DNA of 50,624 bases from Gemmatimonadota bacterium (lineage in GTDB: Bacteria; JAAXHH01), in assembly GCA_026702745.1 (NCBI GenBank), contig JAPPBT010000051.1:1-50624 (forward strand), given 5' to 3'. A program made the translations under genes and the position numbers. The notes below the pieces were generated by a model. That model did not search any database. It was not told where the DNA came from and was given only the letters and a program-made list of their open reading frames with translations. The stretch's first letter is position 1. The number at the start of each line of letters is the position of its first letter. Of this stretch, positions 6,563 through 50,624 are shown one piece after another.

Positions 6563-6626
6563 GTCTCTGTTTCCTTAGTAAAGGGACGTTAAATTCAGGA
6601 AAAACAATAATTGTATAGGGATAACT

Positions 6627-6655
6627 ATGGTATATGGATGCAGACGTCCCGTCAA
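6627..6655 (-). promoter_or_regulatory. Probable promoter of the Trx-TonB fusion gene
   Basis: On the minus strand, TTGACG (complement of 6650-6655) is followed after 17 bases by TACCAT (complement of 6627-6632), about 65 bases upstream of the ATG at 6562. The -35 is strong and the -10 moderate. Confidence 0.45.
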
Positions 6656-6816
6656 CTGAACGGGTTCCCACAAGCATCGACGAATACACTGATGATTTGC
6701 TTGCTCGCTGTCTTGTAGGTTTCCTGACAAAACCGCAATTCCCACGAGATTCCCCCACGTAATCACGACCATTCCTGTATAGCACCGAATCACACACCCG
6801 GTCACAGGGAGGCGTC

Positions 6817-7521
6817 GTGCGTCAATCCATTCATACCCCTACCCTGATCTCCGTCGAAGATCTGTATAAGACCTTCCCGATGGGAGACAGCCGCATTTCC
6901 GCGCTCCGGGGCGTATCCGCCACCATCAACCGGGGCGAATACATGGCCGTGATGGGCCGGTCGGGATCCGGCAAATCCACCCTGATGAACATCCTGGGCT
7001 GCCTGGACACGCCCACGGCGGGCAGGTACGCCCTCGACGGCAGGTCCGTCGGAGACCTCACGGACGACGAACAGGCCTTCATCCGAAACCGGATGATCGG
7101 GTTCGTGTTCCAGGCCTTCAACCTGCTCCCGAGAATGGACGCGCTGCACAACGTGGAACTGCCGCTCCTCTACCGCGGCATGGACAGCAGGGAACGGCGT
7201 TGGCGCTCCATGGAAGCCATGGAAGCGGTGGGCGTGAGCGACCGGGCTAGCCACAGGCCCAACGAGATGTCGGGCGGGCAGCGCCAGCGCGTGGCCATCG
7301 CCCGTGCGCTGGTCGGCGAACCGTCCATCATCCTGGCGGACGAGCCTACGGGAAACCTGGACAGCGGGACCGGGGAGGAGATCATGGCGATTTTCGATCG
7401 TCTGAACGGGGAAGGACATACGATCATACTGGTGACCCACGAAGCGCATATCGCCCGGCATTGCAGGAGGATCATCAGGTTGCGCGATGGCGTGATTGAG
7501 GAGGATCGTTCGATTGTCTGA
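6817..7521 (+). CDS. ABC transporter ATP-binding protein (MacB/LolD type)
   Basis: 234 residues, the usual length for LolD/MacB-family ATPases, which energise mechanotransmission by FtsX-type permeases. Seen: Walker [10 protein letters not shown] (47-55), the Q-loop in [22 protein letters not shown], signature [15 protein letters not shown], Walker [12 protein letters not shown] and the H-loop VTHEAHIA. The start is a GTG at 6817 with a strong ribosome binding site (AGGGAGG, 6806-6812); the GTG is supported because family similarity begins soon after. No permease or periplasmic partner gene is adjacent. Instead four small membrane coiled-coil proteins follow, the first beginning 13 bases after the stop. 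The transported substrate cannot be inferred. Confidence 0.9.
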
Positions 7522-7534
7522 AATGGAGATGAAT

Positions 7535-7804
7535 ATGGATGCTACCAATGTTATAAGCAATGTAGTCGTAATTGGAATCCTGCTCTTTGTCTGGCGCAGT
7601 CTCGGCATGCGGATTTCTCAACTCGATAAGCGTCTGAGTGACCGAATCGATCACCTTGATGAGCGGGTCTCGCAGATCGAGGAACGGATTGCGCACCTGG
7701 GCGAGCGGATTGCACACCTGGGTGAGCGGATTTCCCGGATAGAAGGACTGTTTGAGGCCTTCGCTCGGAAAAGCAACCCTTTTGAATCGGAAAAGAAGTC
7801 CTGA
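7535..7804 (+). CDS. Small single-helix membrane protein with coiled coil (pair A, copy 1)
   Basis: 89 residues, not recognised. Residues 1-20 form one hydrophobic helix (MDATNVISNVVVIGILLFVW). The rest is a charged coiled coil with near-repeats (ERVSQIEERIAHLGERIAHL) and a short tail NPFESEKKS. I place the start at the ATG at 7535, because the second copy (7827) starts at the same residue and both have a GGAG-type ribosome binding site; the frame is open further upstream. It begins 13 bases after the ABC ATPase stop, so probably one operon. Function unknown; a membrane-tethered oligomer is plausible. Confidence 0.7.
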   Translation: MDATNVISNVVVIGILLFVWRSLGMRISQLDKRLSDRIDHLDERVSQIEERIAHLGERIAHLGERISRIEGLFEAFARKSNPFESEKKS

Positions 7805-7826
7805 GTAAACAGGAAAGGAGACGAAC

Positions 7827-8042
7827 ATGGACGCTACCAACGTCATCAGCAATGTAGTTGTAATCGGGATCCTGCTCTTCGTCTGGCGCAGCCTCGACAT
7901 GCGGATTTCTCAACTCACTGAGCGGGTCTCGCAAATCGAGGAACGGATTGCGCATTTGGGCGAACACGTATCCCGTATAGAAGGGCTGCTTGGGGCCTTT
8001 GCACGGATAAGCAACCCCTTTGAAACGGAAAAGAAGACCTGA
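7827..8042 (+). CDS. Small single-helix membrane protein with coiled coil (pair A, copy 2)
   Basis: 71 residues, a tandem paralogue of the gene at 7535-7804. The first 35 residues are nearly identical (MDATNVISNVVVIGILLFVW then RSLDMRISQL), and the tails match (NPFETEKKT). It lacks about 18 residues of coiled coil (one DKRLSDRIDHL segment and one IAHLGER unit), so the copies differ by whole coiled-coil units. The ribosome binding site is AAGGAG, 8 bases before the ATG. The wobble-position differences between the copies suggest an old duplication under purifying selection. Confidence 0.7.
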   Translation: MDATNVISNVVVIGILLFVWRSLDMRISQLTERVSQIEERIAHLGEHVSRIEGLLGAFARISNPFETEKKT

Positions 8043-8112
8043 ATGGAGAAGACACATACCGGTTTCTTAAACGATATCCACGATCAAATCTTGAAACCAT
8101 GAAAGGAGCATC

Positions 8113-8376
8113 ATGGAACACGCGCAACTCTGGCTTCAGCCCCTGATTCTGTTGACCGCATTCATCTTCTTCTGGCGCGAGGCCAAAGGCAGCCGGCGGG
8201 AACTAAAAGAGGACATCCAGAAAGAACTCAACAAGATCGACGCGAGATTCAATCGATTCGAGGACAAAATCGATGCCCGGATCGAACGCCTCGAAGACAG
8301 AATCCGGGAAGACATGGACAAGATGGATTCCCGTTTCGATCGTCTCGAAAGCGCACTGATCGAAGGCAGAAATTAA
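8113..8376 (+). CDS. Small single-helix membrane protein with coiled coil (pair B, copy 1)
   Basis: 87 residues, not recognised. N-terminal hydrophobic helix (about 6-23, LWLQPLILLTAFIFFWRE) followed by a continuous coiled coil of Lys/Glu/Asp/Arg with repeats of the type KIDARFNRFEDKIDARIERL. Preceded by AAAGGAGCATC, the same as its paralogue at 8433. It has the same architecture as pair A but a different sequence, so the two pairs are probably analogous or very distant. About 70 bases separate it from the previous gene. Confidence 0.7.
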   Translation: MEHAQLWLQPLILLTAFIFFWREAKGSRRELKEDIQKELNKIDARFNRFEDKIDARIERLEDRIREDMDKMDSRFDRLESALIEGRN

Positions 8377-8432
8377 CCACCTCACATGCGTCACCCGCTC
8401 TGTTCATCTGGGAGTGCCGCGAAAGGAGCATC

Positions 8433-8771
8433 ATGGAACACGTACATCTCTGGGCTCAGCCCCTGATCCTGCTGACCGCCTTCATCTTCTTCTGGCGGGA
8501 GGCGAAAGGCAGCCGGCATGAACTGAAAGCCGACATAGGGGAAGAACTGAACAAGATCGACGCGAGATTCGACCGTTTCGAGGACAACCTTAGGAAAGAG
8601 TTGGGCAAAGTCGATTCGACGTTCGACAAGGTAAACGCCAAGTTCGATCGTTTCGAAGACAAAATGCAGAAAGACATGGGTGAGATGGACAACCGGATTG
8701 CACGTCTGGAAGACAAGGTAGACGCCCGTTTCGACCGGCTCGAGCGCATTTTGCTTGAACAGGGGAAGTAG
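8433..8771 (+). CDS. Small single-helix membrane protein with coiled coil (pair B, copy 2)
   Basis: 112 residues, paralogue of 8113-8376. The N-terminal 30 residues are almost identical (MEH, x-x-x, AQPLILLTAFIFFWREAKGSR). The coiled coil is about 25 residues longer, with extra units around KVDSTFDKVNAKFDRFEDKM. The upstream 15 bases and start context (GAAAGGAGCATCATGGAACA) are identical to those of copy 1, so the duplication included the ribosome binding site. The stop is 9 bases before comEC, so it may be translationally coupled to it. Function unknown. Confidence 0.7.
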   Translation: MEHVHLWAQPLILLTAFIFFWREAKGSRHELKADIGEELNKIDARFDRFEDNLRKELGKVDSTFDKVNAKFDRFEDKMQKDMGEMDNRIARLEDKVDARFDRLERILLEQGK

Positions 8772-8780
8772 ACGTCCACC

Positions 8781-11267
8781 ATGCAACGCCCGGCCCTGTT
8801 CATCGCGGTGTGTTTTGTAATCGGCATCCTGTTGGGACACCGCGTCGACGTATCGCCTGTCCTATTTGCGCTAGGTGCAGTCGCGGTCATCGCGGCGGGT
8901 TACGCGCTCTATCGGACCCGTGGAACCACCTCGCCGTACCTTCGCATATTCATGGCTCTGAGCCTCATGTTCGCGGGCGCCTTCTGGTACGCGGTACAGG
9001 TGCGGGTCGTGCCCGCGAACGACATCCGGAGATTCTGCGACCAGCGGCAACGGCATGTGCTGACCGGGACGATCGTCCGATCGCCCGATGCGAGAGCACG
9101 TTTCACCCTGGTTACGATGGACGTGGACTCCATCTCGTTGGGCGTTGTCGGCTGGGCTTCAAGAGAGTCGCCTGGCATGGCGACCGCCACCGATCAAGCG
9201 GCCCCCGTGACTGGCCGCCTGCAGGTCCGCCTGAACAGCGGCATCGATCCCGGCCGGTACGGCGACCGCGTCCTCGTATCGGGACGCCTGCGCAGCCCCC
9301 AACCCGCTCGCAACCCCGGCGGATTCGACGCGCGCACCTACTACGGGAGCAGGGGGGTTTACGCGCTGGTGAGCGTGCGCGATGCGGGCAGCTATCGCGT
9401 GACGCGGCGCAGTACGTCGTTCACCTGGCAGACCGGGGTCATCGACCCGCTGCGAAGCAGCATCGACCGGTCCATCGACCGGACCATGCGGGGCGATTCT
9501 GCCGCCCTGCTGAAAGGCATCCTGCTGGGTGCGCGGCAGCAGCTGCCCGAGGATCTGCTCCACACCTTCAGGACGATCGGCCTGGCCCATATCCTGGCCG
9601 TGTCCGGGCTGCACGTCGGCCTGATTACCCTGGTGATCCACACGCTGCTGTCCGTCCTGAGACTGCCGCGGAACATCGTCGTCGCCGGCACGCTGGGCGT
9701 ATTGGTGCTTTACGCCTTCATCACCAACCTGACGCCGTCGGTCATCCGGGCTACGATCATGGCGGCGCTCTTCCTGGCGGGCCGCCAGCTGGACCGTCAG
9801 ACCGACACCGTCAACATCCTGGCCGTGGCGGCCATCGTCATTCTCCTGATCTGGCCCTCGGCCCTCTTCGACCTGAGCTTCCAGCTGTCCTTCCTGGCGA
9901 CCTACGCTATCATCACGGGATATCCCCGGATGAAGGAACTGCTCCCCGAGCGGATTTCACGGTCGGAGAAATGGTGGGCCCGCTGGCTGCGGGACGGGTT
10001 GCTGGTCTCGGTCGCGGCGCAACTGGGCGCGCTGCCCGTGGTAGCGGGTACGTTCTACCAGGTTTCCTGGATGTCGGCGGTGGCGAATCTATTCATCGGG
10101 CCGCTGGTGTTCCTGAACACGACCTTCGGCGTGCTCACCGCCCTGACCGGCCCCCTGGCCATCGAAATCGCCCGCCTCTTCAGCGCCGTCAACACGCTGG
10201 TCCTGTTCGCCATGATCCACCTCTCGAAGACCTTCTCCGGCGCGCCGTCCGCGCTGGTCGAGGTGCCGGCGCCTTCCACGCTCTTCTATGGCTCCTTCTA
10301 CGGCGCGGGCCTGCTGCTGCTTTGGAAACCGGGTGGGTCCCGGGCGCGGCGGACGCGGCTGGGTCTGCTGGCCCTTTCTCTCTTGCTCTTCTGTTACAAC
10401 CTGCTGCCCGACCGGTCGCTGAGGATCACCGTCCTCGACGTCGGACAGGGGGACGCCATCTTCATTGCCTGTCCCAACGGACGCACCCTCCTGGTCGACG
10501 GTGGCGTCCGTACGCATTTTTACGACGCCGGCGCCCGCGTCATCCTGCCCTTCATGCGTGCGAAAGGATACCGCCGCGTGGATACGATTATCGTCACCCA
10601 TCCCGACCTGGACCACTACGGCGGACTTCGGGCCGTCGTGGAGTCCGTTGAAGTGGGCGAGGTTCTTTCGAGCGGCGTCGGTTCTCAGTCCCGTTCCTAC
10701 CAGGCCTGGCGCGAGGCCATCGACCGGCGCGGCATCCCGTACCGCATGGTCGCGAGGGGGGACACCCTCGCGGCGCTGGGCGGCGTGCGCGGCCTGTTTC
10801 TTCATCCGGATCCCCTGTTCCTGACAGGCCCGTCGAAGTCCAGCTCCAACGAGGTGTCCTTGGTCCTGCGCCTGTCCCTTGGCGCGTTCAGCATGCTCCT
10901 TACCGGCGACATCGAGGAAAAAGGCGAAGCCGCTACCGTCCGCCGGCCGTCCATCCTGAAAAGCACGGTGCTCAAATCGCCCCATCACGGAAGCCGCTCG
11001 TCGAGCGGAACGACCTTCCTGAACGCCGTCGACCCGGAGGCGGTGGCCGTTTCCGCCGGCATGTACAATGCCTTCGGCCACCCTTCGCCCGAGGTCATTG
11101 AGCGGTACAGGCGGCGGGGAGCGGAGGTGTTTCGAACGGACGAGGGCGGCGCGGTTGTGATCCGCAGCAACGGCCGTTCCTGGGACATGTCGTACTTTGC
11201 GCCGCCACGACCCCTCGGTCCCACGCCCGGCCAGGTGGTGGATGGGTTTCTCTTGACAGCAAAATAA
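8781..11267 (+). CDS. comEC: ComEC/Rec2 family DNA-uptake channel
   Basis: 828 residues, the normal size for full-length ComEC, the inner-membrane channel that carries single-stranded DNA into the cell during transformation. N-terminal membrane helices and a DUF4131-type OB region (about 1-230) come first. The competence domain follows with its hallmark HILAVSGLHVGLI (about 274-286) and many helices. The C-terminal metallo-beta-lactamase-like domain begins at ITVLDVGQGDA and has THPDLDHYGG (the HxxxDH metal site) and SPHHGSRSSS. All three domains appear intact, so a nuclease activity is possible. ATG at 8781; no strong ribosome binding site. No other competence gene is in the window. Confidence 0.95.
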   Translation: MQRPALFIAVCFVIGILLGHRVDVSPVLFALGAVAVIAAGYALYRTRGTTSPYLRIFMALSLMFAGAFWYAVQVRVVPANDIRRFCDQRQRHVLTGTIVRSPDARARFTLVTMDVDSISLGVVGWASRESPGMATATDQAAPVTGRLQVRLNSGIDPGRYGDRVLVSGRLRSPQPARNPGGFDARTYYGSRGVYALVSVRDAGSYRVTRRSTSFTWQTGVIDPLRSSIDRSIDRTMRGDSAALLKGILLGARQQLPEDLLHTFRTIGLAHILAVSGLHVGLITLVIHTLLSVLRLPRNIVVAGTLGVLVLYAFITNLTPSVIRATIMAALFLAGRQLDRQTDTVNILAVAAIVILLIWPSALFDLSFQLSFLATYAIITGYPRMKELLPERISRSEKWWARWLRDGLLVSVAAQLGALPVVAGTFYQVSWMSAVANLFIGPLVFLNTTFGVLTALTGPLAIEIARLFSAVNTLVLFAMIHLSKTFSGAPSALVEVPAPSTLFYGSFYGAGLLLLWKPGGSRARRTRLGLLALSLLLFCYNLLPDRSLRITVLDVGQGDAIFIACPNGRTLLVDGGVRTHFYDAGARVILPFMRAKGYRRVDTIIVTHPDLDHYGGLRAVVESVEVGEVLSSGVGSQSRSYQAWREAIDRRGIPYRMVARGDTLAALGGVRGLFLHPDPLFLTGPSKSSSNEVSLVLRLSLGAFSMLLTGDIEEKGEAATVRRPSILKSTVLKSPHHGSRSSSGTTFLNAVDPEAVAVSAGMYNAFGHPSPEVIERYRRRGAEVFRTDEGGAVVIRSNGRSWDMSYFAPPRPLGPTPGQVVDGFLLTAK

Positions 11268-11281
11268 CCTCGGTCTATATT
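11253..11281 (+). promoter_or_regulatory. Sigma70-type promoter for the TPR peptidase gene
   Basis: A perfect -35 TTGACA (11253-11258), a 17-base spacer and TATATT (11276-11281). The -35 lies inside the last codons of comEC. The predicted start is near 11288, about 58 bases before the ATG at 11346. Confidence 0.7.
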
Positions 11282-11345
11282 TCGATAACACAACATAAGT
11301 CATTATCAAACATATATTTAACACCGATTTATACCCCGGTCCAAT

Positions 11346-14054
11346 ATGATCAGAGCCGCCCCTTTGCTCGCGGTGCTTCTGCTGCTCTTCGCGGCGGAAA
11401 TCCCTCCCCCTGCTAACGCCCAGGGCGCAACAGCCCAGAACCGCTCCGCCCAGGACGGCGACGCCTTCAAAGAAGCGATCAAGGAAGGTCTTGCGGCGCG
11501 CCAGCGCTACGTGGACCGGATCGAGGAACTCCAGACGGAGGTCACGAGGCAAAACGCCCGCCTGCGCACCGCCGGTACCGGCAATCGTGATGAGCAGGAG
11601 CGGCGAAACGAGACGATGTCGGCGCTTGCACGGCTTCACATGTCCGTCGGACAGTATGATCAGGCCGTCGAACTCCTGAGTAGCGCGGTGGAGCAGGCGG
11701 GCGCGACCGAATACACCGCCGACATGCGCGCGTTGCTTGGCAGACTACTCCTGGGCCTGGGGCGGTATGACGAGGCGGAGGCCGTGCTGGCCGCTACCCG
11801 GTCTCGCCAGGGCGGTCCGGCGCTGGCCACCGTTCGGCTCGCGGAGGTGTATTTCACGACGGGCAGGACCGATGAAGGCCTCGAACTGTGCCGCGAGGTC
11901 CTGAGGAACACTGGATCACAAGGACCGCCGAACGCACCGAACCTGATGGCCGCGGGGCTCGCCGCGCGGTACCTGGAGCTTTCTCACGAGGCCAACTCGT
12001 TTCTGGCCGCCGCGACACGTGTCGACGGCGAGTATCTCGATGCCTACGTGGCATGGGGTCGCCTCTTCCTCGACAAGCACAACCGTGCGGAAGCGACGGG
12101 GATTTTCGAAGACGCGCTGAAGATCGACGCCGGATATCCGCCGGCGCTGATGGGCCTGGCCGAGGCGCTTGCGGAGAAACAGCCGCTGCCGGCGGAGGCC
12201 ATAGTACAGAAGGCGCTCGCGATCAACCCCGCGCTCATGGAGGGACGTCTTTTCCTCGCGGGTCTCCACCTGACGGACGAGGCCTATGATGAGGCGATCG
12301 GCCAGCTGGACCAGGCCCTGGAGGTCAACCCGGAATCGCCAGAAACACATGCCCTCCTGGCGGCCGCTTACCACGGCCAGGGCCGCCAGGCCGAATTCGA
12401 AGCCGCCCGGCAGCGCGTCCTGGACATAAATCCTTCCTATGGCCGGCTGTACGAAATCATCGCGAACCACCTCACGCGGCGCTACCGGTTCCGGGAGTCC
12501 GTGGAGATGGGCCGCCGTGCGATCGAGACCGACCCCGCGCTCTGGTCGGCCTACGCCGGGCTTGGGATCAGCCTGACCCGGGTAGGCGAGATGGATGAGG
12601 CCCGCCGGATGCTGGAACAGGCCTTCGACAGAGACCCATTCGACACCCGGACCTACAACACGCTGGAACTGCTCGACGCCTTCGAAGATTTCGAGACCAG
12701 GGAAAGCGGACCGTTTATCCTGAAGATCCACCGGGACGAAGACGCCGTGTACGGGAAGCTGGCCCTCGACCTGCTCGAAGAAGCCCACCGGACGATCGCG
12801 CCGCGGTACGGGTTCACGCCGGATGGACCCGTGCTCGTCGAGATGCTGCCGGACAACGACGACTTCATGGTGCGCATCGCCGGCGTGCCGGGAACGGGCG
12901 GCCTGCTGGGAGTCTGCTTCGGCGAGGTGGTGGTGGCGAATTCACCCAGGGCCCGGCCGAAGGGGACGTTCAACTGGGGGCAGACGCTCTGGCACGAGTA
13001 CATCCACGTCACCCATCTGCAGCAGACGCGCAACCGGATCCCCCGCTGGCTGGCGGAAGGCATCGCCGTCTACGAAACGCGTCTCGCCCGGCCGGAATGG
13101 GACATGGACCTGGAAGCGGAGTTCACCGAGGCGGCCATCCAGGGCGAGTTACTCGCCGTCAGCGAACTGAACCGGGGTTTCACCCGGCCGAAGTCGCGGA
13201 ATCAGATCGTCCTTTCCTACTACCAGGCCTCGGTCGTCGTGGAATACATCGTGGACACCTTCGGATTCGAGGCGGTCCGGCACATGCTGGACCTGTACAA
13301 CAGGAATCGAACCACCGCCGAAGTCGTTCGCGAGGTAACGGGCCGGTCCATGGAAGACTTCGACCGGGATTTCGCGGACTATACCGAAGAACGGATCGCC
13401 GGGCTCAGCCGCGTTTTACAATTCAAGCCGCCGCGCGACGAGAAGCCGTCCATGGCCGAACTGGAGGCGATGGCGGCCGATCACCCGGAGAGTTTCTACG
13501 CCCACCTGATGCTGGGCCAGGCGTTGCACATGCAGAAACGGTACGAAGAAGCCATCGCGCCGCTTGAACGCGCCCGGACCCTCTTCGCCAATTACACCCA
13601 TGCCGGCAACCCCCACGCATTGCTGGCGGAGATCTACCTCGAACAGGGGAACACGGAGGCGGCGATGGAGGCCCTCGAGGCCCTCACCGCCGTCGACGAG
13701 GACGACATCGAATCCTGCAAGACCTTGGCCGGGCTCTACGCCGGGGAAGGCCGGCGCGGGGACGCCCTCCGCATCCTGGAACGGGCCGTCATGATCGATC
13801 CCTTCGACGCCGAGATCCGCAAGATGCGCGCCGGTTTGTACGAACGGGACGGAAGGCCGGAACTGGCCGTGCCAGAGTACGAAGCCGTGCTGGCGGTCGA
13901 GACCACCGACCGGGTGCAGGCGCAGTACGACCTGGCCCGCGCCTATCTGGCGGCGGGAAGGAAGGACGACGCCAGGAAGGCCGCGCTGAAGGCCCTGGAG
14001 GCTGCGCCCGGCTTCGAAGCCGCCCAGGAGGTCCTGCTCCGGTCGCTGGAATGA
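11346..14054 (+). CDS. Secreted TPR protein with gluzincin metallopeptidase domain
   Basis: 902 residues. A signal peptide (about 1-26, hydrophobic core LLAVLLLLFAA, then ANAQ) predicts export. An N-terminal array of tetratricopeptide repeats (about 95-465) and a C-terminal one (about 705-900) flank a peptidase-MA-like domain. Its zinc site is complete: H550-E551-Y-I-H554 (WHEYIHVTH), with a third ligand E571 in RWLAEGIAVYE. Family knowledge: such gluzincins flanked by TPRs occur in many environmental bacteria, but substrates are mostly unknown. The intact HExxH suggests an active enzyme, with TPRs binding a partner or substrate in the periplasm. It has its own promoter and is followed by about 260 bases of non-coding sequence before carB. 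The ATG at 11346 lacks a strong ribosome binding site. Confidence 0.85.
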   Translation: MIRAAPLLAVLLLLFAAEIPPPANAQGATAQNRSAQDGDAFKEAIKEGLAARQRYVDRIEELQTEVTRQNARLRTAGTGNRDEQERRNETMSALARLHMSVGQYDQAVELLSSAVEQAGATEYTADMRALLGRLLLGLGRYDEAEAVLAATRSRQGGPALATVRLAEVYFTTGRTDEGLELCREVLRNTGSQGPPNAPNLMAAGLAARYLELSHEANSFLAAATRVDGEYLDAYVAWGRLFLDKHNRAEATGIFEDALKIDAGYPPALMGLAEALAEKQPLPAEAIVQKALAINPALMEGRLFLAGLHLTDEAYDEAIGQLDQALEVNPESPETHALLAAAYHGQGRQAEFEAARQRVLDINPSYGRLYEIIANHLTRRYRFRESVEMGRRAIETDPALWSAYAGLGISLTRVGEMDEARRMLEQAFDRDPFDTRTYNTLELLDAFEDFETRESGPFILKIHRDEDAVYGKLALDLLEEAHRTIAPRYGFTPDGPVLVEMLPDNDDFMVRIAGVPGTGGLLGVCFGEVVVANSPRARPKGTFNWGQTLWHEYIHVTHLQQTRNRIPRWLAEGIAVYETRLARPEWDMDLEAEFTEAAIQGELLAVSELNRGFTRPKSRNQIVLSYYQASVVVEYIVDTFGFEAVRHMLDLYNRNRTTAEVVREVTGRSMEDFDRDFADYTEERIAGLSRVLQFKPPRDEKPSMAELEAMAADHPESFYAHLMLGQALHMQKRYEEAIAPLERARTLFANYTHAGNPHALLAEIYLEQGNTEAAMEALEALTAVDEDDIESCKTLAGLYAGEGRRGDALRILERAVMIDPFDAEIRKMRAGLYERDGRPELAVPEYEAVLAVETTDRVQAQYDLARAYLAAGRKDDARKAALKALEAAPGFEAAQEVLLRSLE

Positions 14055-40380: not shown

Positions 40381-40408
40381 TTGACACGTTAGGCGCGCAC
40401 CCTATATT
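40381..40408 (+). promoter_or_regulatory. Sigma70-type promoter of lysW and probably the whole lys operon
   Basis: Perfect TTGACA (40381-40386), 16-base spacer, TATATT (40403-40408), nine bases after the gyrA stop. The predicted start is near 40415, about 60 bases before lysW. I see no other clear promoter before the lysX-like gene, so transcripts from here would pass through the leader ORF and terminator. Confidence 0.7.
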
Positions 40409-40473: not shown

Positions 40474-40641
40474 ATGAGCGGGATCTGCCCCGAATGTGGC
40501 GCCGAGATCACCCTGGACTATGATGTCGTGGTCGGCGAAATCATCACGTGCCCGGAGTGCGGCGCGGAACTGGAAGTGATCAGCGTCGGCCCACTGGAGT
40601 TCGCACTGGCACCGGAAGAAGAGGAAGACTGGGGAGAATAG
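40474..40641 (+). CDS. lysW: Amino-group carrier protein LysW
   Basis: 55 residues. A small acidic zinc-ribbon protein whose C-terminal glutamate gamma-carboxyl carries alpha-aminoadipate (for lysine) or glutamate (for arginine/ornithine) through the pathway. Seen: two CPEC knuckles (ICPECGAEI and TCPECGAEL) and the defining C-terminus EDWGE. The ATG at 40474 has GAGGG upstream. It has its own promoter just before it and is separated from the enzyme genes by a 284-base region holding the leader peptide and terminator. Readthrough at the terminator would let the cell make carrier in excess over enzymes, which is sensible for a stoichiometric carrier (inference). Confidence 0.95.
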
Positions 40642-40695
40642 GCCCACGGTCTAGTCGGCGGTTTCGAGCACATACGGGATATCAAGGAAATCAAG

Positions 40696-40773
40696 ATGAG
40701 CAAACGAATGAAACATAAACATGGTAAACATGATTGTGATTTACGTTCGTCCGCTCATCGGGCCCCACGGTAA
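40696..40773 (+). CDS. Candidate Lys/His-rich attenuation leader peptide
   Basis: 25-codon ORF starting at ATG 40696, with ribosome binding site AAGGAAA (40684-40690). It begins MSKRMKHKHGKH and then continues DCDLRSSAHRAPR, stop TAA at 40771-40773. It has four Lys and three His codons in its first 12 positions and one more His later. All four Lys are AAA and all four His are CAT, against a GC-rich background. The stop codon lies inside the 5' arm of hairpin 40761-40797, and a strong terminator follows 40 bases on. The layout is that of a translation-coupled attenuator, matching an operon of lysine genes and hisS. Translation and stalling are inferred. Confidence 0.7.
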   Translation: MSKRMKHKHGKHDCDLRSSAHRAPR

Positions 40774-40797
40774 TCCTGCGAAAGGGATTACGGGGCC
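40761..40797 (+). promoter_or_regulatory. Attenuator hairpin overlapping the leader stop codon
   Basis: GGCCCC (40761-40766) pairs with GGGGCC (40792-40797) and GTAATCC (40770-40776) with GGATTAC (40785-40791). A 3-base bulge (40767-40769) lies on the 5' side and the loop is 8 bases. The leader stop codon is in the 5' arm, so a ribosome there would block this hairpin. An alternative pairing, 40800-40806 with 40818-40824, would break the terminator and could be the antiterminator. How stalling selects between them is not clear by eye. Confidence 0.6.
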
Positions 40798-40811
40798 ACG
40801 GGAACAGTTGG

Positions 40812-40859
40812 GAGCCGTGTTCCTCTTCGATTGAGCGAAGAGGCCGGCTCTTTTTTTTT
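40812..40859 (+). terminator. Strong rho-independent terminator before the lysX-like gene
   Basis: Outer stem GAGCCG/CGGCTC (40812-40817 with 40845-40850) and inner stem CCTCTTCG/CGAAGAGG (40822-40829 with 40836-40843), 6-base loop, then nine T (40851-40859). It sits between lysW and the other lys genes, 66 bases before the next start, so the enzyme genes need readthrough or an unseen promoter. Confidence 0.85.
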
Positions 40860-40883: not shown

Positions 40884-40921
40884 ATATCCGGAAGGACGCG
40901 GTATATCCGGAAGGACGCGGG
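40884..40921 (+). repeat. 19-base tandem repeat containing the ribosome binding site of the lysX-like gene
   Basis: ATATCCGGAAGGACGCGG occurs at 40884-40901 and again at 40903-40920, one base apart. Each copy carries a GGAAGGA ribosome binding motif; only the second is near enough (about 10 bases) to the ATG at 40926. The first copy begins within CGGATATCCG, a perfect palindrome. Confidence 0.85.
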
Positions 40922-40925
40922 ATCT

Positions 40926-41816
40926 ATGGTATTGGGCATCGTGCTGTCGCGTATCAGGAAGGACGAGAAACGGTTGATCGCCGAGGCGCGCCGCCGCGGC
41001 ATCAACGTGAAGACGATCGACAACACGCGGCTGGTCTTCGAACTGGACCGGCGCCACATGGAACTGGATGGGGTCCTGGAGCGCTGTATCGATCACCATC
41101 GCGCCGTGTACGCACTGACCGTCTTCGACCACTGGGGCATACCGACGGTGAACCGCCAGTCGGTGGTGGAGACATACGGGAACCGGTTGCTGACGTCCCT
41201 GGCCTTGCGGGAGAACGGGGTGCCGGTGCCGGAAGTGCGCGTGGCCTATACGCCGCGTTCCGCCCTGGAAGCCATGGAGGACATGGGGTACCCGGTCGTG
41301 CTCCGTCCCGTGGAGGGCCCCGAGGGCCAGCTCGTTTCCCGCATAGGGGACAAGTATACGGCGGCGACGGTCCTGGAGCACAAACGCATCCTCGGCGCCT
41401 ATCACCACTCCATATTCTTCATGCAAAAGCACATCGATACGCCCGGACACGACATCAGGGCGTACGTGGTCGGTGACGAGACAGTGGCCGCCGTATCGGT
41501 GCTGACCCATCACTGGATCGGGACCATCACCGCCGGCGGCCTGATGAAGCAGGAACCCGTCACGGAGGAACTGAACGACCTGGCGGTCGCCGCCGTCCGG
41601 GCAATCGGCGGCGGTATCGCGGTGGTGGATATGGTACGCACGAAGGACGCCTGGTTCGTGCAGGAGATGGGCCCGCCGTCCGGGCTTTCGGACGCGTCGG
41701 ACGCCACCGGGGTCAATATCCCGGGGAAGATCATGGACTACGTGGCGGACGCCGTGGCGCGGGGGGGCGCGGTGTCTCGGCCGGACTCGGTATCGCGGGG
41801 AGGACGAAACTCGTGA
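40926..41816 (+). CDS. LysX-like ATP-grasp protein with altered catalytic residues
   Basis: 296 residues, colinear without gaps with the next gene's LysX over about 275 residues, then a Gly/Arg/Ser tail. LysX ligases join LysW's C-terminal Glu to alpha-aminoadipate. Here key positions differ: the ATP-binding Lys127 of LysX is Arg127 (VVLRPVEG), the loop GSWG (131-134) is GPEG, the substrate-loop motif [10 protein letters not shown] reads [10 protein letters not shown], and the metal-binding NEVN (246-249) is QEMG, so the Asn at 249 is Gly. Glu247 is kept. The frame is intact, with normal codon use, so it is not a decayed gene. It may be a non-catalytic partner of LysX, or have another substrate (inference). 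ATG at 40926, 4-base overlap with lysX. Confidence 0.8.
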
Positions 41817-42652
41817 AGATCGGCATGTTGCTGTCCATCGTTTCCACGGAACAGAAGATGCTCTTTGAGGCCGCGGCGAAACGGGGTATCGTCTTCGACC
41901 GGCTGGACGACCGGCGCATCGTCTTCGACCTGGAGAACCACCGGTACGACCACGACGTCATACTCGAGCGGTGCATCAACCACTCCAGGGCCCTCAACTC
42001 GCTGAAGATGCTCAATGCCGGCGGCATCAGGACCGTCAATACCTACGAGGTGGCCCGTGTGTGCGGCAACAAGTTCCTGACGACCATGGCACTGGTGGAC
42101 CACGGAGTACCCACGCCGAAGGCCCGCGTCGCGTTCACAGCCGAGTCGGCGCTGGAGGAAATGGAATCCATGGGCTATCCCGTCGTGCTCAAACCGCCCA
42201 TCGGTTCGTGGGGGCGCCTCATCGCGCGCGTGAACGACCGTCATGCCGCCGAAGCGGTGCTCGAGCACAAGGAGACCCTGGGGTCCTATCAGCATTCGGT
42301 GATCTACATCCAGGAGTACGTGGACAAGCCTGGCCGGGATATCCGGTCCTTCGTGGTCGACGGCGAGACCATATGCGCCGTTTACCGGTACTCGGACCAC
42401 TGGAAGACCAATACCGCCCTGGGCGGGACGACGGCCGACTGTCCCGTGGAGGGCGAGGTGGGGACGCTTTCCGCCCGCGCCGCGGAAGCGGTGGGCGGCG
42501 GCGTGGTGGCCGTCGACCTGCTGGAATCGCCGGACGGGATCCTGGTCAACGAGGTCAACTACACCATGGAGTTCCGGAACAGCATCAAGCCGACGGGCGT
42601 GGACATTCCCGGCCGAATCATCGATTATCTGGTAAAGGTGGCCCAATCATGA
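41813..42652 (+). CDS. lysX: LysW-alpha-aminoadipate (or glutamate) ligase LysX
   Basis: 279 residues of the RimK-like ATP-grasp family. It ligates the amino group of alpha-aminoadipate to the LysW C-terminus with ATP. All expected residues are visible: Lys127 in [13 protein letters not shown], the substrate-side motif [10 protein letters not shown] (197-206), and Asn246, Glu247 and Asn249 in [12 protein letters not shown]. The start is a GTG at 41813 overlapping the previous stop by 4 bases, with GGAGG upstream. Substrate (aminoadipate or glutamate) cannot be fixed from sequence, but the leader's Lys codons and the presence of argJ favour lysine. Confidence 0.9.
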
Positions 42653-43692
42653 TCAAGGTGTCTATCGCCGGCGCGTCCGGCTATGGCGGAGGGGAACTGC
42701 TCCGCCTGCTCCTGTTCCACCCGGAAATCGAAATCGGACAGGTGACTTCGGAATCGCTTGCGGGCAAGCCCGTGGGCCGGTCCCATCCGAACCTGCGGCG
42801 GGTTACGGACCTCAAGTTCAGCGCCCTGGCCGACCTCGAGCCCTGCGATGTCCTGTGCCTGTGCCTGCCCCACGGGGAGGCCATGCAGAGGTGGGACGCC
42901 GTTTCCGGCCTGTCGGGCCGCGTCATAGACCTGAGCGCGGACTTCCGCCTGCGGGATCCGGCGGACTATCCGACCTGGTACGGACACACCCATGCCCATC
43001 CCGATGTCCTCGGCCGGTTCGTGTACGGCCTGGCCGAACTCTACCGGGACGAGATTCGGGAAGCGGAATGCGTCGCGTGCACCGGGTGCCTGGCCGCCAC
43101 GGCGATCCTGTCGCTGGCGCCCCTCCTCAGGGCCGGGGCCGTCGATCCCTCCCGAATTTTCATGGAGGGGAAGATCGGCTCCTCCGCGGCGGGACACCGG
43201 GCCGACCGGTCCACCCACCACCCGGACCGCAGCGGGGCCGTGCGGTCCTTCAAGCCCACGGGACATCGCCACACGGCGGAGATCGTGCAGGAGCTCACCT
43301 TCGGCGGGCATGCACCCAAAGTCCATTTCTCGGCGACGGCCATCGAACTGGTGCGCGGCATCCTCATGACGACCCATGCCTTTGTGAACGACGGCCTGGC
43401 CGACAAGGATATCTGGGGCATCTACCGGGCGGCCTATAGCCGGGAACCCTTCATCCGCATCATCAAGGAACGCCAGGGCGTGTTCCGCTATCCCGATCCG
43501 AAGTTCCTCGCGGGCACCAATTACTGCGACATCGGGTTCGAGCGAGACGAGCACAGCGACCGGGTCGTGGTCATGGGCGCACTGGACAACCTGGTCAAGG
43601 GCGCGGCCGGACAGGCCGTGCAGGCCCTCAACATCATGCACGGGTGGGACGAACGGACGGGCCTGGAGTTTCCGGGCCTCCACCCGGTATAG
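42649..43692 (+). CDS. lysY: LysW-aminoadipyl-6-phosphate reductase LysY (ArgC family)
   Basis: 347 residues. NADPH-dependent reduction of the LysW-bound acyl phosphate to semialdehyde. Seen: Rossmann motif [14 protein letters not shown] (8-21), [10 protein letters not shown], the catalytic Cys147 in CTGCLAAT, the KIGSSAAG segment, and HRHTAEI near the active-site His. ArgC itself is a close relative; the LysW operon context decides for LysY. ATG at 42649 overlaps the lysX stop by 4 bases (ATGA). An upstream-extended frame is the lysX shadow. Confidence 0.92.
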
Positions 43693-43699
43693 GACGGAT

Positions 43700-44961
<1,262 letters not shown>

Positions 44962-44965
<4 letters not shown>

Positions 44966-45759
44966 TCGTGGTGAAGACGGGCGGAAGCCGGGGCATCAAC
45001 CTGGATTACGTCCTGGAGGACATCGCCCGGCAGACCGAACCGCTGGTGCTGGTGCACGGCGCGTCCGACGAATTGAACCGGATTTCCGAGCAACTGGGCA
45101 AGCCGCCCCGCATGGTCACGTCGCCGTCGGGATACACGAGCCGGGTCACCGATCAGGAAACGCTGGACATCTTCACCATGGTGTACTGTGGAAAGCGCAA
45201 CACCCGCATCGTCGAGAGACTGCAGCAGCTCGGGGTCAACGCCGTCGGCCTTAGCGGCGTGGACGGCCGTCTGCTCGAGGGCCGCCGGAAACCCAGTATC
45301 CGCATCGTGGAGGACGGCCGGACGAAGATCCTGCGGGATGACTACACCGGCCGGATCGAAAGGGCGAACGTCTCGCTCCTGACCACGCTCCTCGACCAGG
45401 GCTACCTGCCCGTCATCAGTCCCCCCGCCATCAGCTACGAAGGCGAGGTGATCAACATTGACGGGGACCGCGCGGCCGCGGTGATCGCCGACGCCCTCGG
45501 CGCGGAACGGCTGGTCATACTCTCCAATACGCCGGGGTTCCTGGAGGATGCGGACGATGAGGACACACTGATACCTCGGATATCCCGCGACGAAATCGAC
45601 CGGGAGATCGAAACCCACGCCCGGGACCGCATGAAGAAGAAGCTGCTCGGTGCGAAGGAGGCGCTCGAGGTCGGCGTGGGCCAGGTGATCCTGGGGGACG
45701 GCAGGATCCCCGAACCGGTCACGGCGGCCTTGCGCGGCGAGGGCACGGTGATCGGGTAG
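44962..45759 (+). CDS. lysZ: LysW-aminoadipate 6-kinase LysZ (ArgB family)
   Basis: 265 residues. Phosphorylates the side-chain carboxyl of LysW-bound aminoadipate. Amino-acid-kinase features: N-terminal VVKTGGS, VLVHGAS, the LysZ-like GYTSRVTD loop, AVGLSGVDG, NIDGDRAAAVIADALGA and VILSNTPGFL. ArgB kinases of the acetyl pathway usually have a longer N-terminus; the short start at once with VVKTGGS fits LysZ. ATG at 44962 overlaps hisS by 4 bases. 114 bases separate it from lysJ. Confidence 0.92.
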
Positions 45760-45873
45760 CAGGCGCAGGCGCGGAACGATCGCGTTGTGGCCGCGGGCGG
45801 GTTGCGGCCGCCCGGGCGGGGACGGTCCGCGCCGAGGCGGATGAACCGGAAATACGGATCGGAGCAAGCTGAA

Positions 45874-47115
45874 ATGACAGACTACCAGGCCATGGAAAAC
45901 CAGGCGTCGATGGGCATTCTGCCCAAGCGGGACGTGGTGATCGTCCGGGGCAGCGGCGCGCGCGTCTGGGATGCAGAAGGCAAGGAATACATCGATTGCA
46001 TCGGCGGGATCGGTACGGCCAATGTAGGCCACTGCCATCCGGCCGTGACGGAGGCGGTCGCGCGGCAGGCGGAGCGGCTCGTAATCTGTCCGGACACCTT
46101 CTACAATGACCTCCGGGCGGAACTGGCCGTAGCCCTGACCCGGGTGGCCCCGGAGGGGCTGGACCGGCTCTTCCTGTGCAATTCAGGCACGGAAGCGGTG
46201 GAGGCGGCGCTGAAATTCGCCCGCGTCGCTACCGGCCGGCAGGGCATCATCGCGGCCCAGCGCGGATTTCACGGACGTACCTTCGGGGCCCTGAGCGCCA
46301 CCTGGAATCCCAAGTACCGCGCCCCCTTCGAACCCCTCGTGCCCGGTTTCACCCACGTGAAATACAACGATGTCTCCGTCATGGAGGAATCCATCGGCGA
46401 CGGGACGGCCGCGGTAATCCTGGAGGTGGTACAGGGCGAGGGCGGCGTTCGGATCGGCGACGGCGCCTATCTGAAACGCGTGGAAGCCCTGTGCCGGGAA
46501 CGGGGTGTCCTGTTCATCGTGGACGAGGTGCAAACCGGATTCGGCCGGACCGGCGCCATGTTCGCCTGCGAGCACCATGGCCTGCGGCCGGACATGCTCT
46601 GCCTGGCCAAAGCCATGGCCGGCGGCCTGCCCGTGGGCGCTACGCTGTGTGCCGACTCGGTCCGGGACGTCCCCTCCATGTCCCACGGCAACACCTTTGG
46701 CGGCAGCCCGGTGGTCTGCGCGGCGGGCCTGGCCACGCTGCGCGTGCTGGAGGAAGAAGGGCTCGTCGAGAAGGCTCGGGAGAACGGCGCGTACTTCCGG
46801 GATGCACTTGCGGCGCTGGACGCGCCCTTTGTCCGGGAGATCAGGGGCCTGGGCCTGATCATCGGCGTCGAGATGAAGGGACGGGTCACCCCCGTCCTCC
46901 GCGGACTCATGGAACGCGGCGTGATGGCCCTGCCCGCGGGCAACACGGTGCTGCGCTTCCTCCCGCCCCTGTCGATTTCCAGGGAGGAGATCGACCAGGT
47001 GGTAGAGACCGTGGGTGTGGTGCTGGGATCGTTGGAGGGAAGTTCGGCGGACGATGCGGCCCGGGACCGGAGACGTGCGCGGCGAAGTCCTGCCGGAGCC
47101 CCGGAGGCCGAATGA
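45874..47115 (+). CDS. lysJ: LysW-aminoadipate semialdehyde aminotransferase LysJ
   Basis: 413 residues from the ATG at 45874. Class III PLP aminotransferase that converts the LysW-bound semialdehyde to LysW-lysine. Seen: DCIGGIGTANVGHCHP, NSGTEAVEAALKFAR, the cofactor-binding VDEVQTGFGRTG, and the PLP Lys246 in LCLAKAMAGG. I prefer 45874 because GGAG lies 9 bases upstream; frame-open ATGs at 45787 and 45841 have poor sites, and the extra residues look like untranslated leader. The end overlaps lysK by 4 bases. ArgD is a close relative; context gives LysJ. Confidence 0.92.
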   Translation: MTDYQAMENQASMGILPKRDVVIVRGSGARVWDAEGKEYIDCIGGIGTANVGHCHPAVTEAVARQAERLVICPDTFYNDLRAELAVALTRVAPEGLDRLFLCNSGTEAVEAALKFARVATGRQGIIAAQRGFHGRTFGALSATWNPKYRAPFEPLVPGFTHVKYNDVSVMEESIGDGTAAVILEVVQGEGGVRIGDGAYLKRVEALCRERGVLFIVDEVQTGFGRTGAMFACEHHGLRPDMLCLAKAMAGGLPVGATLCADSVRDVPSMSHGNTFGGSPVVCAAGLATLRVLEEEGLVEKARENGAYFRDALAALDAPFVREIRGLGLIIGVEMKGRVTPVLRGLMERGVMALPAGNTVLRFLPPLSISREEIDQVVETVGVVLGSLEGSSADDAARDRRRARRSPAGAPEAE

Positions 47116-48176
47116 GTCGCGACCGCGACGACATCGCGCTGCTGCGAGGCCTGGTCGAGCGTTACAGCCCTTCCACGCAGGAAGGCGAGGCCGTTTCCTT
47201 CCTGGTGGACGCCATGGATCGCCGGGGGCTTCGCGCCTACGTGGACGAGGCCGGGAACGTGGTGGGCGAGATTGGCCACGGCGAACCGCATATCGCCCTG
47301 GTCGGGCATATCGACACGGTACCCGGGATCGTTCCCATCCGGGAGGAATCGGACAGGCTTTACGGCCGCGGCACGGTAGACGCCAAGGGCCCCCTGGCGA
47401 CCTTCGCGGCCGCCGCGTCCCGCCTCACGGAAACCACCGGCGGCCGGATCACCGTCGTCGGCGCCGTGGAGGAGGAGTGCCCCACCTCGAAGGGCGCCCG
47501 CCACCTGGTGGACCGCATGCGGCCCGACTGCGTGTTCATCGGTGAACCGAGCGGTTGGGACAGCGTCACCATCGGGTACAAGGGCCACGTGGGGTTCGAC
47601 TACCGCCTCGAGCAGCCCAACGCCCATCACGCCGGCGATCACAAACGCGCCGCCGAACGGGCGATCGACCTGTACAACGCCATGCAAGCCCGCGTCGCCG
47701 GCCAGGCCACGGAAAGCGAATTCGGGTCTCCCCGGCTCGAGTTGAGACGATTCAACACTACGGACGAGGGATTGACCGAGGGCGTCGAGGCGTACTTCTC
47801 GGTGCGCGTGCCGCCCGGTTACGACCTGGATGGCCTGATCGGTTTCGTGATGGAACAGGCGGTCCCAGCGGAAATCACATGCGACCAGCGGCTGCCGGGC
47901 GTGGTCGCCGAGAAGAACACGGCGCTGATCCGGGCGCTTTTGCGGGGCATCAGACAAGAAGGCGGCCGCCCCACTTTCAAGAAGAAGACGGGCACCTCGG
48001 ACATGTGCATCGTCGGACCGGCCTGGAATTGCCCGATCGCGGCCTACGGTCCCGGCGACTCCAGCCTGGACCATACACCGGACGAGCACATCGTCCTGGA
48101 AGAGTATCTGCGGGCCATCGAGGTGTTGACGGCCGCGCTGAAGCAGTTGACCGCCGCGGGCTCCCCGACCGCCTGA
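47112..48176 (+). CDS. lysK: LysW-lysine/ornithine hydrolase LysK
   Basis: 354 residues. Zinc M20-type deacylase that frees lysine (or ornithine) from LysW. Metal-site motifs: VGHIDTVPG (His66, Asp68), GRGTVDAKGPLAT (Asp90), and the Glu-Glu-Glu of GAVEEEC (about 119-123). It ends in LDHTPDEHIVLEEYLRAIEVL with a late His. The ATG at 47112 overlaps lysJ by 4 bases. It is the last gene of the operon; no terminator is obvious in the next 50 bases. Confidence 0.92.
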   Translation: MSRDRDDIALLRGLVERYSPSTQEGEAVSFLVDAMDRRGLRAYVDEAGNVVGEIGHGEPHIALVGHIDTVPGIVPIREESDRLYGRGTVDAKGPLATFAAAASRLTETTGGRITVVGAVEEECPTSKGARHLVDRMRPDCVFIGEPSGWDSVTIGYKGHVGFDYRLEQPNAHHAGDHKRAAERAIDLYNAMQARVAGQATESEFGSPRLELRRFNTTDEGLTEGVEAYFSVRVPPGYDLDGLIGFVMEQAVPAEITCDQRLPGVVAEKNTALIRALLRGIRQEGGRPTFKKKTGTSDMCIVGPAWNCPIAAYGPGDSSLDHTPDEHIVLEEYLRAIEVLTAALKQLTAAGSPTA

Positions 48177-48775: not shown

Positions 48776-50624
48776 ATGCGTAGAAGCAGATTTCACCGCA
48801 TGCTGTGTGTGGTGGCGGTGGCCATTTGCGTGGCAGTCGTTGGCCATCCAGATGCAGCACATGGTCAATCCAACCCATCCAGTTGGTTTGTCACCACCTG
48901 GCGAACGACGACCAGCAACGAGTCGATAACCGTTCCCGCCCGCGGCACGTACACCATAGACTGGGGCGACGGGACCGTCGAAGAGAACGTCAGCGGCACC
49001 CAGTCCCACACGTATGATTCCGCCGGCCGCCACACGGTGCGCATATCCGACGGCATCACCGGATTCCGCCTAGACACCACCAATGACGCGTACAAGCTGG
49101 TATCCATAGACCAGTGGGGAACCGCCCAGTGGACGTCGATGTATGCGGCGTTCCGGGGCGGATACAACATGAGTTACAATGCGACGGACGCGCCCGACCT
49201 CTCGGGCGTCTCCGACGCCAGCCACATGTTCCGCGATGCCCGCTCCTTCAACGGCGACCTGTCTTCCTGGGACGTCTCGTCTGTGACTACCATGGTTGAT
49301 ATGTTCCGCGGCGCCACCGCCTTCAACAAGCCCCTGTCCTCCTGGGACGTCTCGTCTGTGACGGACATGTCGCGGATGTTCCTCGGCGCCACCGCCTTCA
49401 ACCGGCCTCTGTCCTCCTGGAACGTCTCGTCTGTGACGGACATGTCGCGGATGTTCAGTGAAGCATCCTCCTTCAACGGCGACATATCCGGATGGGACGT
49501 CTCGTCCGTGGCCGGTATGAACGGCATGTTCCGCGGCGCTACCTCCTTCAACCAACCCCTGAACTCCTGGAACACGTCGTCTTTGACCAAAATACGCGCC
49601 ATGTTCTGGGGAGCCCACTCCTTCAACCAACCGCTGGACTCGTGGAACACGTCGTCCGTGACCGACATGCGCTCCGTGTTCACTGACGCCCAATCCTTCA
49701 ATCAGCCCCTGGACTCGTGGGACGTCTCGTCCGTGACCAGCCTGGAGGAGGTGTTCCTCAATGCCTACGCCTTCAACCAGCCCCTGGACTCGTGGGACGT
49801 CTCGTCTGTGACCAGCCTGAGTAGCTCGTTCCTCAACGCCCGCTCCTTCAACCAACCCCTGAACTCGTGGGACGTCTCGTCCGTGACCAACATGCTAAAG
49901 ACGTTCCGGAACGCCGCCTCCTTCGACCAGCCCCTGGACTCGTGGGACGTCTCGTCCGTGACCAGCCTGTTCTCCACGTTTTATGACGCCGCATCTTTCA
50001 ACCAGCCCCTGGACTCGTGGGACGTCTCGTCGGTTACTCGCATGGACTACACGTTCCATAACGCCACGTCTTTCAACCAGCCTCTGGACTCGTGGGACGT
50101 CTCCTCTGTTACCCACATGACCCTCATGTTCAACGGCGCTGCCTCCTTCAATCAGCCCCTGGACTCGTGGGACGTCTCGTCGGTTACCCGCATGGGCGAC
50201 ATGTTCGGCGGCGCATCCGCCTTCGAGCAGAACCTGGGAAACTGGCTCATCGTGCTGGATGACACGTCAATCGACTATAGCGATACAACGGGAACCGTCG
50301 GAGGTCTATCCGCGCAGAACGACTACCTTGACCGGCAGAACCCGGTCTACGGGATCGACCCGGGCGGCGATTCCGGCTCCTTCGAGCTGAACGGCACCAA
50401 CCTCGTGATGAAGGAAACCCCCACCAGGGACGTGTACACGGTGACCATCACAGCGAACTCCACCGGAGACTTTGGCACCGGCAACTCCCGGACATTTACC
50501 ATAGACGTCACGGGCCTGCCCAACTCCCCGCCGTCCGTCGACGCCGGCCCCGACCAGACGGTGCGCGAACTCTCCACCGTGACCCTGTCCGGCAACGCCA
50601 CCGACGCGAACGCCGGGGATACCC
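48776..50624 (+). CDS. Secreted BspA-like surface protein with DUF285 repeats (3' end outside window)
   Basis: 616 codons are present with no stop, so the gene continues past the window. A signal peptide (about 1-27, MLCVVAVAICVAVVG core) is followed by a short WGDG-containing beta domain (about 35-110, TIDWGDGTVEENVSG), then 13 repeats of exactly 25 residues of the DUF285/BspA type (consensus FxxAxSFNQPLDSWDVSSVTxMxxM), a degenerate 14th, a cadherin-like segment (YGIDPGGDSGSFELNG) and the start of a PKD-like domain (PPSVDAGPDQTV). Such proteins are surface-exposed ligand binders in other bacteria and phages. Strong ribosome binding site AGGAG, 6 bases before ATG 48776. The role here (attachment, defence, cell contact) is unknown. 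Confidence 0.88.
   Translation, partial: MRRSRFHRMLCVVAVAICVAVVGHPDAAHGQSNPSSWFVTTWRTTTSNESITVPARGTYTIDWGDGTVEENVSGTQSHTYDSAGRHTVRISDGITGFRLDTTNDAYKLVSIDQWGTAQWTSMYAAFRGGYNMSYNATDAPDLSGVSDASHMFRDARSFNGDLSSWDVSSVTTMVDMFRGATAFNKPLSSWDVSSVTDMSRMFLGATAFNRPLSSWNVSSVTDMSRMFSEASSFNGDISGWDVSSVAGMNGMFRGATSFNQPLNSWNTSSLTKIRAMFWGAHSFNQPLDSWNTSSVTDMRSVFTDAQSFNQPLDSWDVSSVTSLEEVFLNAYAFNQPLDSWDVSSVTSLSSSFLNARSFNQPLNSWDVSSVTNMLKTFRNAASFDQPLDSWDVSSVTSLFSTFYDAASFNQPLDSWDVSSVTRMDYTFHNATSFNQPLDSWDVSSVTHMTLMFNGAASFNQPLDSWDVSSVTRMGDMFGGASAFEQNLGNWLIVLDDTSIDYSDTTGTVGGLSAQNDYLDRQNPVYGIDPGGDSGSFELNGTNLVMKETPTRDVYTVTITANSTGDFGTGNSRTFTIDVTGLPNSPPSVDAGPDQTVRELSTVTLSGNATDANAGDT
49229..50203 (+). repeat. Thirteen 75-base tandem repeats (25-residue DUF285 units)
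   Basis: Each unit begins at the TTC codon for the Phe of FxxAxSFNQPLDSW and is exactly 75 bases, with no indel over 975 bases. Conserved parts (CAGCCCCTGGACTCGTGGGA and GACGTCTCGTCTGTGAC variants) alternate with variable parts. A partial 14th unit starts at 50204. The near-identity of the central units suggests recent homogenisation. Confidence 0.93.

Follow-up and report, generated by a model that had tools for sequence, protein, structure and literature searches.

What controls expression of an amino acid biosynthesis operon whose first gene, lysW, is separated from the remaining genes by a small open reading frame (ORF) and an intrinsic terminator? We address this question for a window of 50,624 nucleotides, the whole stretch of DNA analysed here, whose genus is placed in Candidatus Latescibacterota, an uncultured group. 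Many members of this group are probably of sponge origin, and some relatives may be sponge symbionts, as suggested by their isolate-style names and by a paper on sponge Latescibacterota (PMC12993501).

Operon layout and pathway assignment

The operon reads lysW, gap, lysX1, lysX2, argC/lysY, hisS, lysZ, lysJ and lysK. Profile matches bear out the preliminary description, which had named lysine-carrier enzymes, a lysX-like gene and histidyl-tRNA synthetase downstream of the gap and related them to the two amino acids enriched in the small ORF:

40381-40408, + strand: sigma-70-like promoter, TTGACA-N16-TATATT, upstream of lysW
40474-40641, + strand: lysW, amino-group carrier protein, opening the operon 5' of the candidate attenuator (TIGR01206, 70.8 bits, cut-off 53.2)
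40926-41816, + strand: lysX1, ATP-grasp LysX paralogue, first gene 3' of the candidate attenuator (rimK family, above cut-off; TIGR02144, 235 bits, under the cut-off of 275.6)
41813-42652, + strand: lysX2, LysX (TIGR02144, 324.5 bits, cut-off 275.6)
42649-43692, + strand: argC/lysY-type reductase (TIGR01850, 380.6 bits)
43700-44965, + strand: hisS, histidyl-tRNA synthetase (TIGR00442, 485.8 bits)
44962-45759, + strand: lysZ, [LysW]-aminoadipate kinase (NF010659, 393 bits, cut-off 223)
45787-47115, + strand: lysJ/argD aminotransferase, start uncertain (TIGR00707, 445.7 bits, cut-off 410; LysJ_Th_th, 461 bits, under the cut-off of 700)
47112-48176, + strand: lysK, [LysW]-lysine hydrolase (NF003367, 406 bits, cut-off 363)

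The promoter matches 11 of 12 consensus positions (shuffling expectation 0.2), and similar elements, judged by eye, precede lysW in three relatives outside the genus, G012, G013 and G015; a search of the gap between the terminator and lysX1 found no promoter-like site. In G012, in G013 and in those genus genomes that were examined, hisS occupies the same place within the operon.

Four products score above the curated cut-offs for lysine synthesis by the LysW route, namely LysW, LysX2, the lysZ kinase and the lysK hydrolase; LysX1 scores below. We rejected arginine as the operon's product, as the genome carries its own argC-argB-argD-argH cluster elsewhere (G000, contig C68, about 6600-11700, locus L112). 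Downstream of that cluster lies a GNAT-family gene, possibly an N-acetylglutamate synthase. None of the 12 genus genomes that carry the leader has a lysA gene, while G012, G013 and G014 do, and its absence from the genus, taken together with the separate arginine cluster, makes the LysW operon plausibly the lysine route of the genus. Nearly all genomes contain dapA, which most of the genus has kept, and the search for a homocitrate synthase gave no hit above cut-off, the best match being leuA inside an ilv-leu cluster. The assignment to lysine is likely but incomplete, with no clear homocitrate synthase; alternatively, the genus may depend partly on imported lysine. A complete lysine pathway, by whichever route, is reported in a published reconstruction for sponge Latescibacterota (PMC12993501).

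Two local peculiarities accompany lysX1. It forms with lysX2 a tandem pair of LysX-type ATP-grasp ligases (40926-42652), of which it is the divergent copy; among the loci compared it is the best match only in Latescibacterota, and its candidate substrates include aminoadipate, glutamate or another compound. Just 5' of it, at 40884-40920, lies a 19-bp tandem duplication, ATATCCGGAAGGACGCGGT, which includes the likely lysX1 ribosome-binding site and varies in length among members of the genus.

A conserved Lys/His reading frame follows lysW

The preliminary description had drawn attention to the lysW-lysX1 gap on account of a 25-codon ORF with four Lys codons, all AAA, and four His codons, all CAT, and this frame is indeed present:

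40696-40773, + strand: putative leader peptide ORF, 25 sense codons and TAA, MSKRMKHKHGKHDCDLRSSAHRAPR, conserved in 13 genomes

Lys3, 6, 8 and 11 and His7, 9, 12 and 21 carry the two codons throughout, whereas the operon prefers AAG and CAC: across the window's operon and gyrA genes 17 of 102 Lys codons are AAA and 21 of 80 His codons are CAT. Codon 4 is CGA (Arg). The ribosome-binding site, described earlier as good, is present but only moderate in strength (AGGAAA about 8 nt upstream). When the window was divided mechanically into 1470 frames of 12-59 codons, this frame held the most Lys and His in its first 12 codons (seven), the runner-up (six) being an internal start inside the same frame, and none of 2000 resamplings from a first-order Markov model of the intergenic region gave a Lys/His count above five.

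The ORF recurs in all 12 genus genomes examined, the source included, which as close relatives count little as independent evidence, and in a sister genus (g3, represented by G013), whose leader, MNRRTKFKHKHIWDNTHSSVRTVHL (MNRRTKFKHKH...), is likewise K/H-rich and exactly 25 codons long. The length of 25 codons holds in 13 of 13 genomes with TAA, TAG or TGA as the stop, indicating that the stop position has been kept while the surrounding sequence changed. Within the genus, K3, R4, K6, H7, K8, H9 and codon 12 show no variation in the 12 genomes; at codon 11 one subclade has Lys and the other Tyr or Asn, the variable residues are S/N, K/Y/N, D/G, S/F and H/R, and Cys14 is conserved within the genus and absent in G013. 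A pattern of the first codons matches once per genome in the 13 genomes, always before lysX1, with zero matches for the reversed-pattern control and none in G012, G014 or G015. A 24-nt match in contig C26 of G013 was discarded as a chance match at an unrelated site. Synonymous-codon identity is higher in the leader than in lysX1, with p below 0.05 in only three of five more distant genus members; G013 is left out of this comparison, its row being out of register. Substitutions in the ORF favour third codon positions only weakly. Among Chloroflexota and other relatives, we found no convincing Lys/His leader with a terminator upstream of lysW.

Hairpins and terminator in the gap

The frame and the sequence that follows it contain a series of predicted RNA structures:

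40695-40759, + strand: hairpin HP1 (A:B), predicted fold that takes in most of the ORF, start codon and Lys/His codons included
40750-40760, + strand: strand B, the end of the HP1 3' arm and the next base, proposed as antiterminator strand from complementarity and folding
40761-40797, + strand: hairpin HP2 (C:D), leader stop codon in its 5' arm, predicted in all 12 genus genomes
40800-40824, + strand: D:E pairing (40800-40806 with 40818-40824), predicted with or without a stalled ribosome
40810-40859, + strand: intrinsic terminator, bulged stem 40810-40852 and T run (T9) 40851-40859, 98.5% of cells paired

Both the placement of the stop codon in a hairpin 5' arm, now HP2, and the terminator with its T9 run agree with the preliminary description, which had missed HP1. 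Folded alone, each of the 12 genus genomes is predicted to form HP1, where 98.4% of pair cells are paired and 22 of 26 pairs never vary, leaving no covariation; its sequence is near-invariant even at third codon positions. HP2 folds throughout, its inner sequence differing between the two subclades with a register shift of one base, and we propose for it the role of a spacer or pause hairpin. The terminator loop reads CGATTGAG. Together with its flanks, the leader folds at z = -5.0 relative to dinucleotide shuffles, none of 200 being as good. Rfam covariance models for the his, trp, thr and leu leaders, the hisS-type T-box and the lysine riboswitch gave no match.

A terminator between lysW and lysX1 is also found in G012, G013 and G015, and hence in all four genera with the operon. 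The preliminary description would have taken homologous gaps with the terminator but without the Lys/His ORF as refuting it, and this is partly the case: such gaps do occur in two more distant relatives, G012 (L015) and G015 (L016). The terminator is therefore older than the leader or independent of it, possibly serving to yield more LysW than enzyme.

Judged by its letters, the gap appears to hold the parts of a leader-peptide attenuator: a short ORF with start, ribosome-binding site and stop ahead of the structural genes, conserved control codons related to those genes, and an intrinsic terminator between ORF and genes.

Predicted ribosome-dependent pairing of strand B

Complementarity links strand B to 40828-40839 (target T), in the loop and 3' arm of the terminator, and the B:T helix has 10-11 of 11 possible pairs in all 12 genus genomes. 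Four of these pairs vary: three only ever become G-U, and in eight genomes the fourth is a C-A mismatch. The single terminator-loop base that varies freely coincides with the bulge of the helix. The alignment of relatives that had been put forward as a check delivers conservation of the ORF, codons and hairpins but no compensatory covariation in HP1 or B:T, both of which are so nearly invariant that covariation is unable to test either.

We folded transcripts ending within the terminator with the ribosome footprint masked. Without a ribosome, strand B stays locked in HP1 and the terminator forms. In these models, placing the A site at codons 1-9 releases strand B, which then pairs with the loop and 3' arm of the emerging terminator in 11 of 12 genomes; in G003 the pairing is weaker and extends up to about codon 7. 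Pairing is mostly absent with the A site at codons 11-13 and essentially zero at codons 18-26, as it is without a ribosome, and some footprints at codons 14-16 release B in several genomes. Varying the footprint between 10 and 18 nt on either side leaves the result largely unchanged. The invariant K3, R4, K6, H7, K8 and H9 fall inside the predicted codon 1-9 window and the variable codon 11 outside it, and a ribosome at the stop codon has a footprint that covers strand B. In all 12 genus genomes, the models with 3' ends inside the terminator contain a ribosome-set alternative structure exclusive with the terminator.

In nine genomes, the observed pairing was reached in 0-9 of 100 trials with a permuted terminator loop and in 0-2 of 100 with a permuted strand B (14 in G003), a comparison that is partly post hoc, as B and T were picked after viewing the folds. 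The plain duplex energy of B with T is not better than that of shuffles in most genomes, and it is the ribosome-masked ensemble test alone that separates real from permuted B:T.

The earlier claim that a stalled ribosome alters the folding is borne out in silico to the extent that the fold depends on the ribosome; at equilibrium, however, the full-length RNA favours the terminator, so that the switch would have to be kinetic, and in G013 the folds do not reproduce B:T switching, a strong D:E hairpin being dominant there. The antiterminator first suggested, 40800-40806 with 40818-40824, gives way to 40750-40760 with 40828-40839 as the ribosome-dependent pairing. The former, D:E, forms regardless of the ribosome in our models and perhaps serves as an auxiliary delay of the terminator. 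We also considered a his-type six-segment switch, in which B:C would free D for D:E, and rejected it: B:C is weak and inconstant in register, and D:E is ribosome-independent.

Proposed mechanism and alternative explanations

The gap offers conserved anatomy, codons and complementarity, to which the folding calculations add a predicted ribosome dependence. We propose, with a probability of about 0.7, that the element is a ribosome-mediated transcription attenuator located inside the operon, after lysW, which senses Lys and His and perhaps also Arg; translation of the ORF, stalling, readthrough and the identity of the sensed amino acids are the steps that we infer. With ample charged tRNA, the ribosome would cross the Lys/His codons, reach the stop and cover B, whereupon the terminator would form and transcription would end after lysW; were the leader not translated, HP1 would tie up B and the terminator would form too. 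When charged tRNA-Lys or tRNA-His is short, the ribosome would stall at codons 3-9, a shortage of tRNA-Arg perhaps having the same effect at the CGA codon 4, and the stalled ribosome would mask the HP1 5' arm and free strand B. Freed B (40750-40760) would then capture the terminator loop and the first part of its 3' arm (40828-40839) as they leave the polymerase, and RNA polymerase would read on into lysX1-lysX2-lysY-hisS-lysZ-lysJ-lysK. As modelled, the logic is that of a classical attenuator, the freed strand pairing with the terminator loop and 3' side. At somewhat less than even odds, and hence tentatively, we further suggest that the leader co-senses Lys and His, possibly with Arg, and couples lysine synthesis with hisS, in combination with the new terminator-loop/3'-arm geometry and with constitutive LysW, only the enzymes being attenuated.

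As a special case of this proposal, the attenuator might sense a single amino acid, lysine, or general translation speed, with the His codons incidental. The operon is mainly of lysine type and extra codons are frequent in attenuators, but CAT 7 and 9 are as invariant as the AAA codons, two CAT codons recur in G013, and the operons of G012, of G013 and of those genus genomes that were examined include hisS; we regard this version as rather doubtful. A constitutive partial terminator, which would simply give more LysW than enzymes and leave the ORF without a role, would suit the lysW-lysX1 terminator of all four operon-bearing genera, two of them without the ORF, as well as a promoter found upstream of lysW only. 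It strikes us as improbable because it leaves unexplained the fixed 25-codon length despite three stop codons, the invariant AAA/CAT codons, HP1 and the B:T complementarity, although such a terminator may have been the ancestral state from which the switch arose.

The near-invariance of HP1, third codon positions included, could also reflect a riboswitch or protein-bound RNA in which HP1 senses a ligand or protein independently of translation. Against this very unlikely reading stand the lack of a match to Rfam, T-box or lysine riboswitch models, the conservation of start, frame and stop despite changes near the stop, and G013, where K/H codons and ORF length persist while most other HP1 sequence differs. 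Scarcely credible, to our minds, is a function of the peptide itself, perhaps as a metal-binding His/Cys-rich small protein beside the zinc-binding LysW: the K/H-rich start and Cys14 are conserved within the genus, yet much of the remainder varies freely, G013 has no Cys, and the start codon is buried in HP1.

Relation to known leader-peptide systems

The class of attenuator to which we assign the element is known; what would be new is a leader that combines Lys and His, stands after lysW and frees a strand that pairs with the 3' side of the terminator. As proposed here, the his, trp, thr and leu attenuators of Proteobacteria have a short ORF containing codons of the pathway amino acid, a hairpin 5' arm masked by the ribosome and an intrinsic terminator ahead of the structural genes. 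They differ in that two unrelated amino acids are represented here, at an internal position after the first gene, with a separate hairpin in between and no Rfam match, and in that the strand freed here is predicted to pair with the terminator loop and 3' arm, whereas theirs pairs with the 5' arm. The preliminary description knew of no LysW pathway under leader control, which appears mistaken: the lysine genes of Thermus thermophilus are reportedly subject to leader-peptide attenuation, in work of 2005 by Tsubouchi and colleagues. That system shares leader-peptide attenuation of LysW-type lysine genes and differs in phylum and gene order, and it is not known to involve hisS or His codons.

Leaders responding to several amino acids include thr (Thr/Ile) and ilv (Ile/Val/Leu), where one leader likewise senses more than one amino acid; those amino acids are products of linked pathways, whereas the pair here would join a biosynthetic product to the substrate of an aminoacyl-tRNA synthetase encoded in the same operon. 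In bacilli, a His leader lies upstream of hisS* and hisZ, which are hisS paralogues (PMC2965389); a His-codon leader thus controls a hisS-family gene there too, but it contains His only and stands at the gene start, with no lysine genes. Our literature search found no report of a Lys and His leader, nor of a leader inside an operon after lysW.

If correct, the proposal would bring an uncultured phylum into the known range of leader-peptide attenuation, couple two unrelated amino acids in one leader through a biosynthetic operon that contains a tRNA synthetase, and provide a simple route to a constitutive amino-group carrier protein with regulated enzymes. It also makes precise predictions that a reporter could easily test, namely a control window at codons 1-9 and an antiterminator of 11 bp.

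Elsewhere in the window, at 49224-50214, a 75-bp repeat occurs 13 times, and its + strand reading gives NMFRDATSFNQPLDSWDVSSVTNMR-like units, which we take to resemble BspA-type surface repeats.
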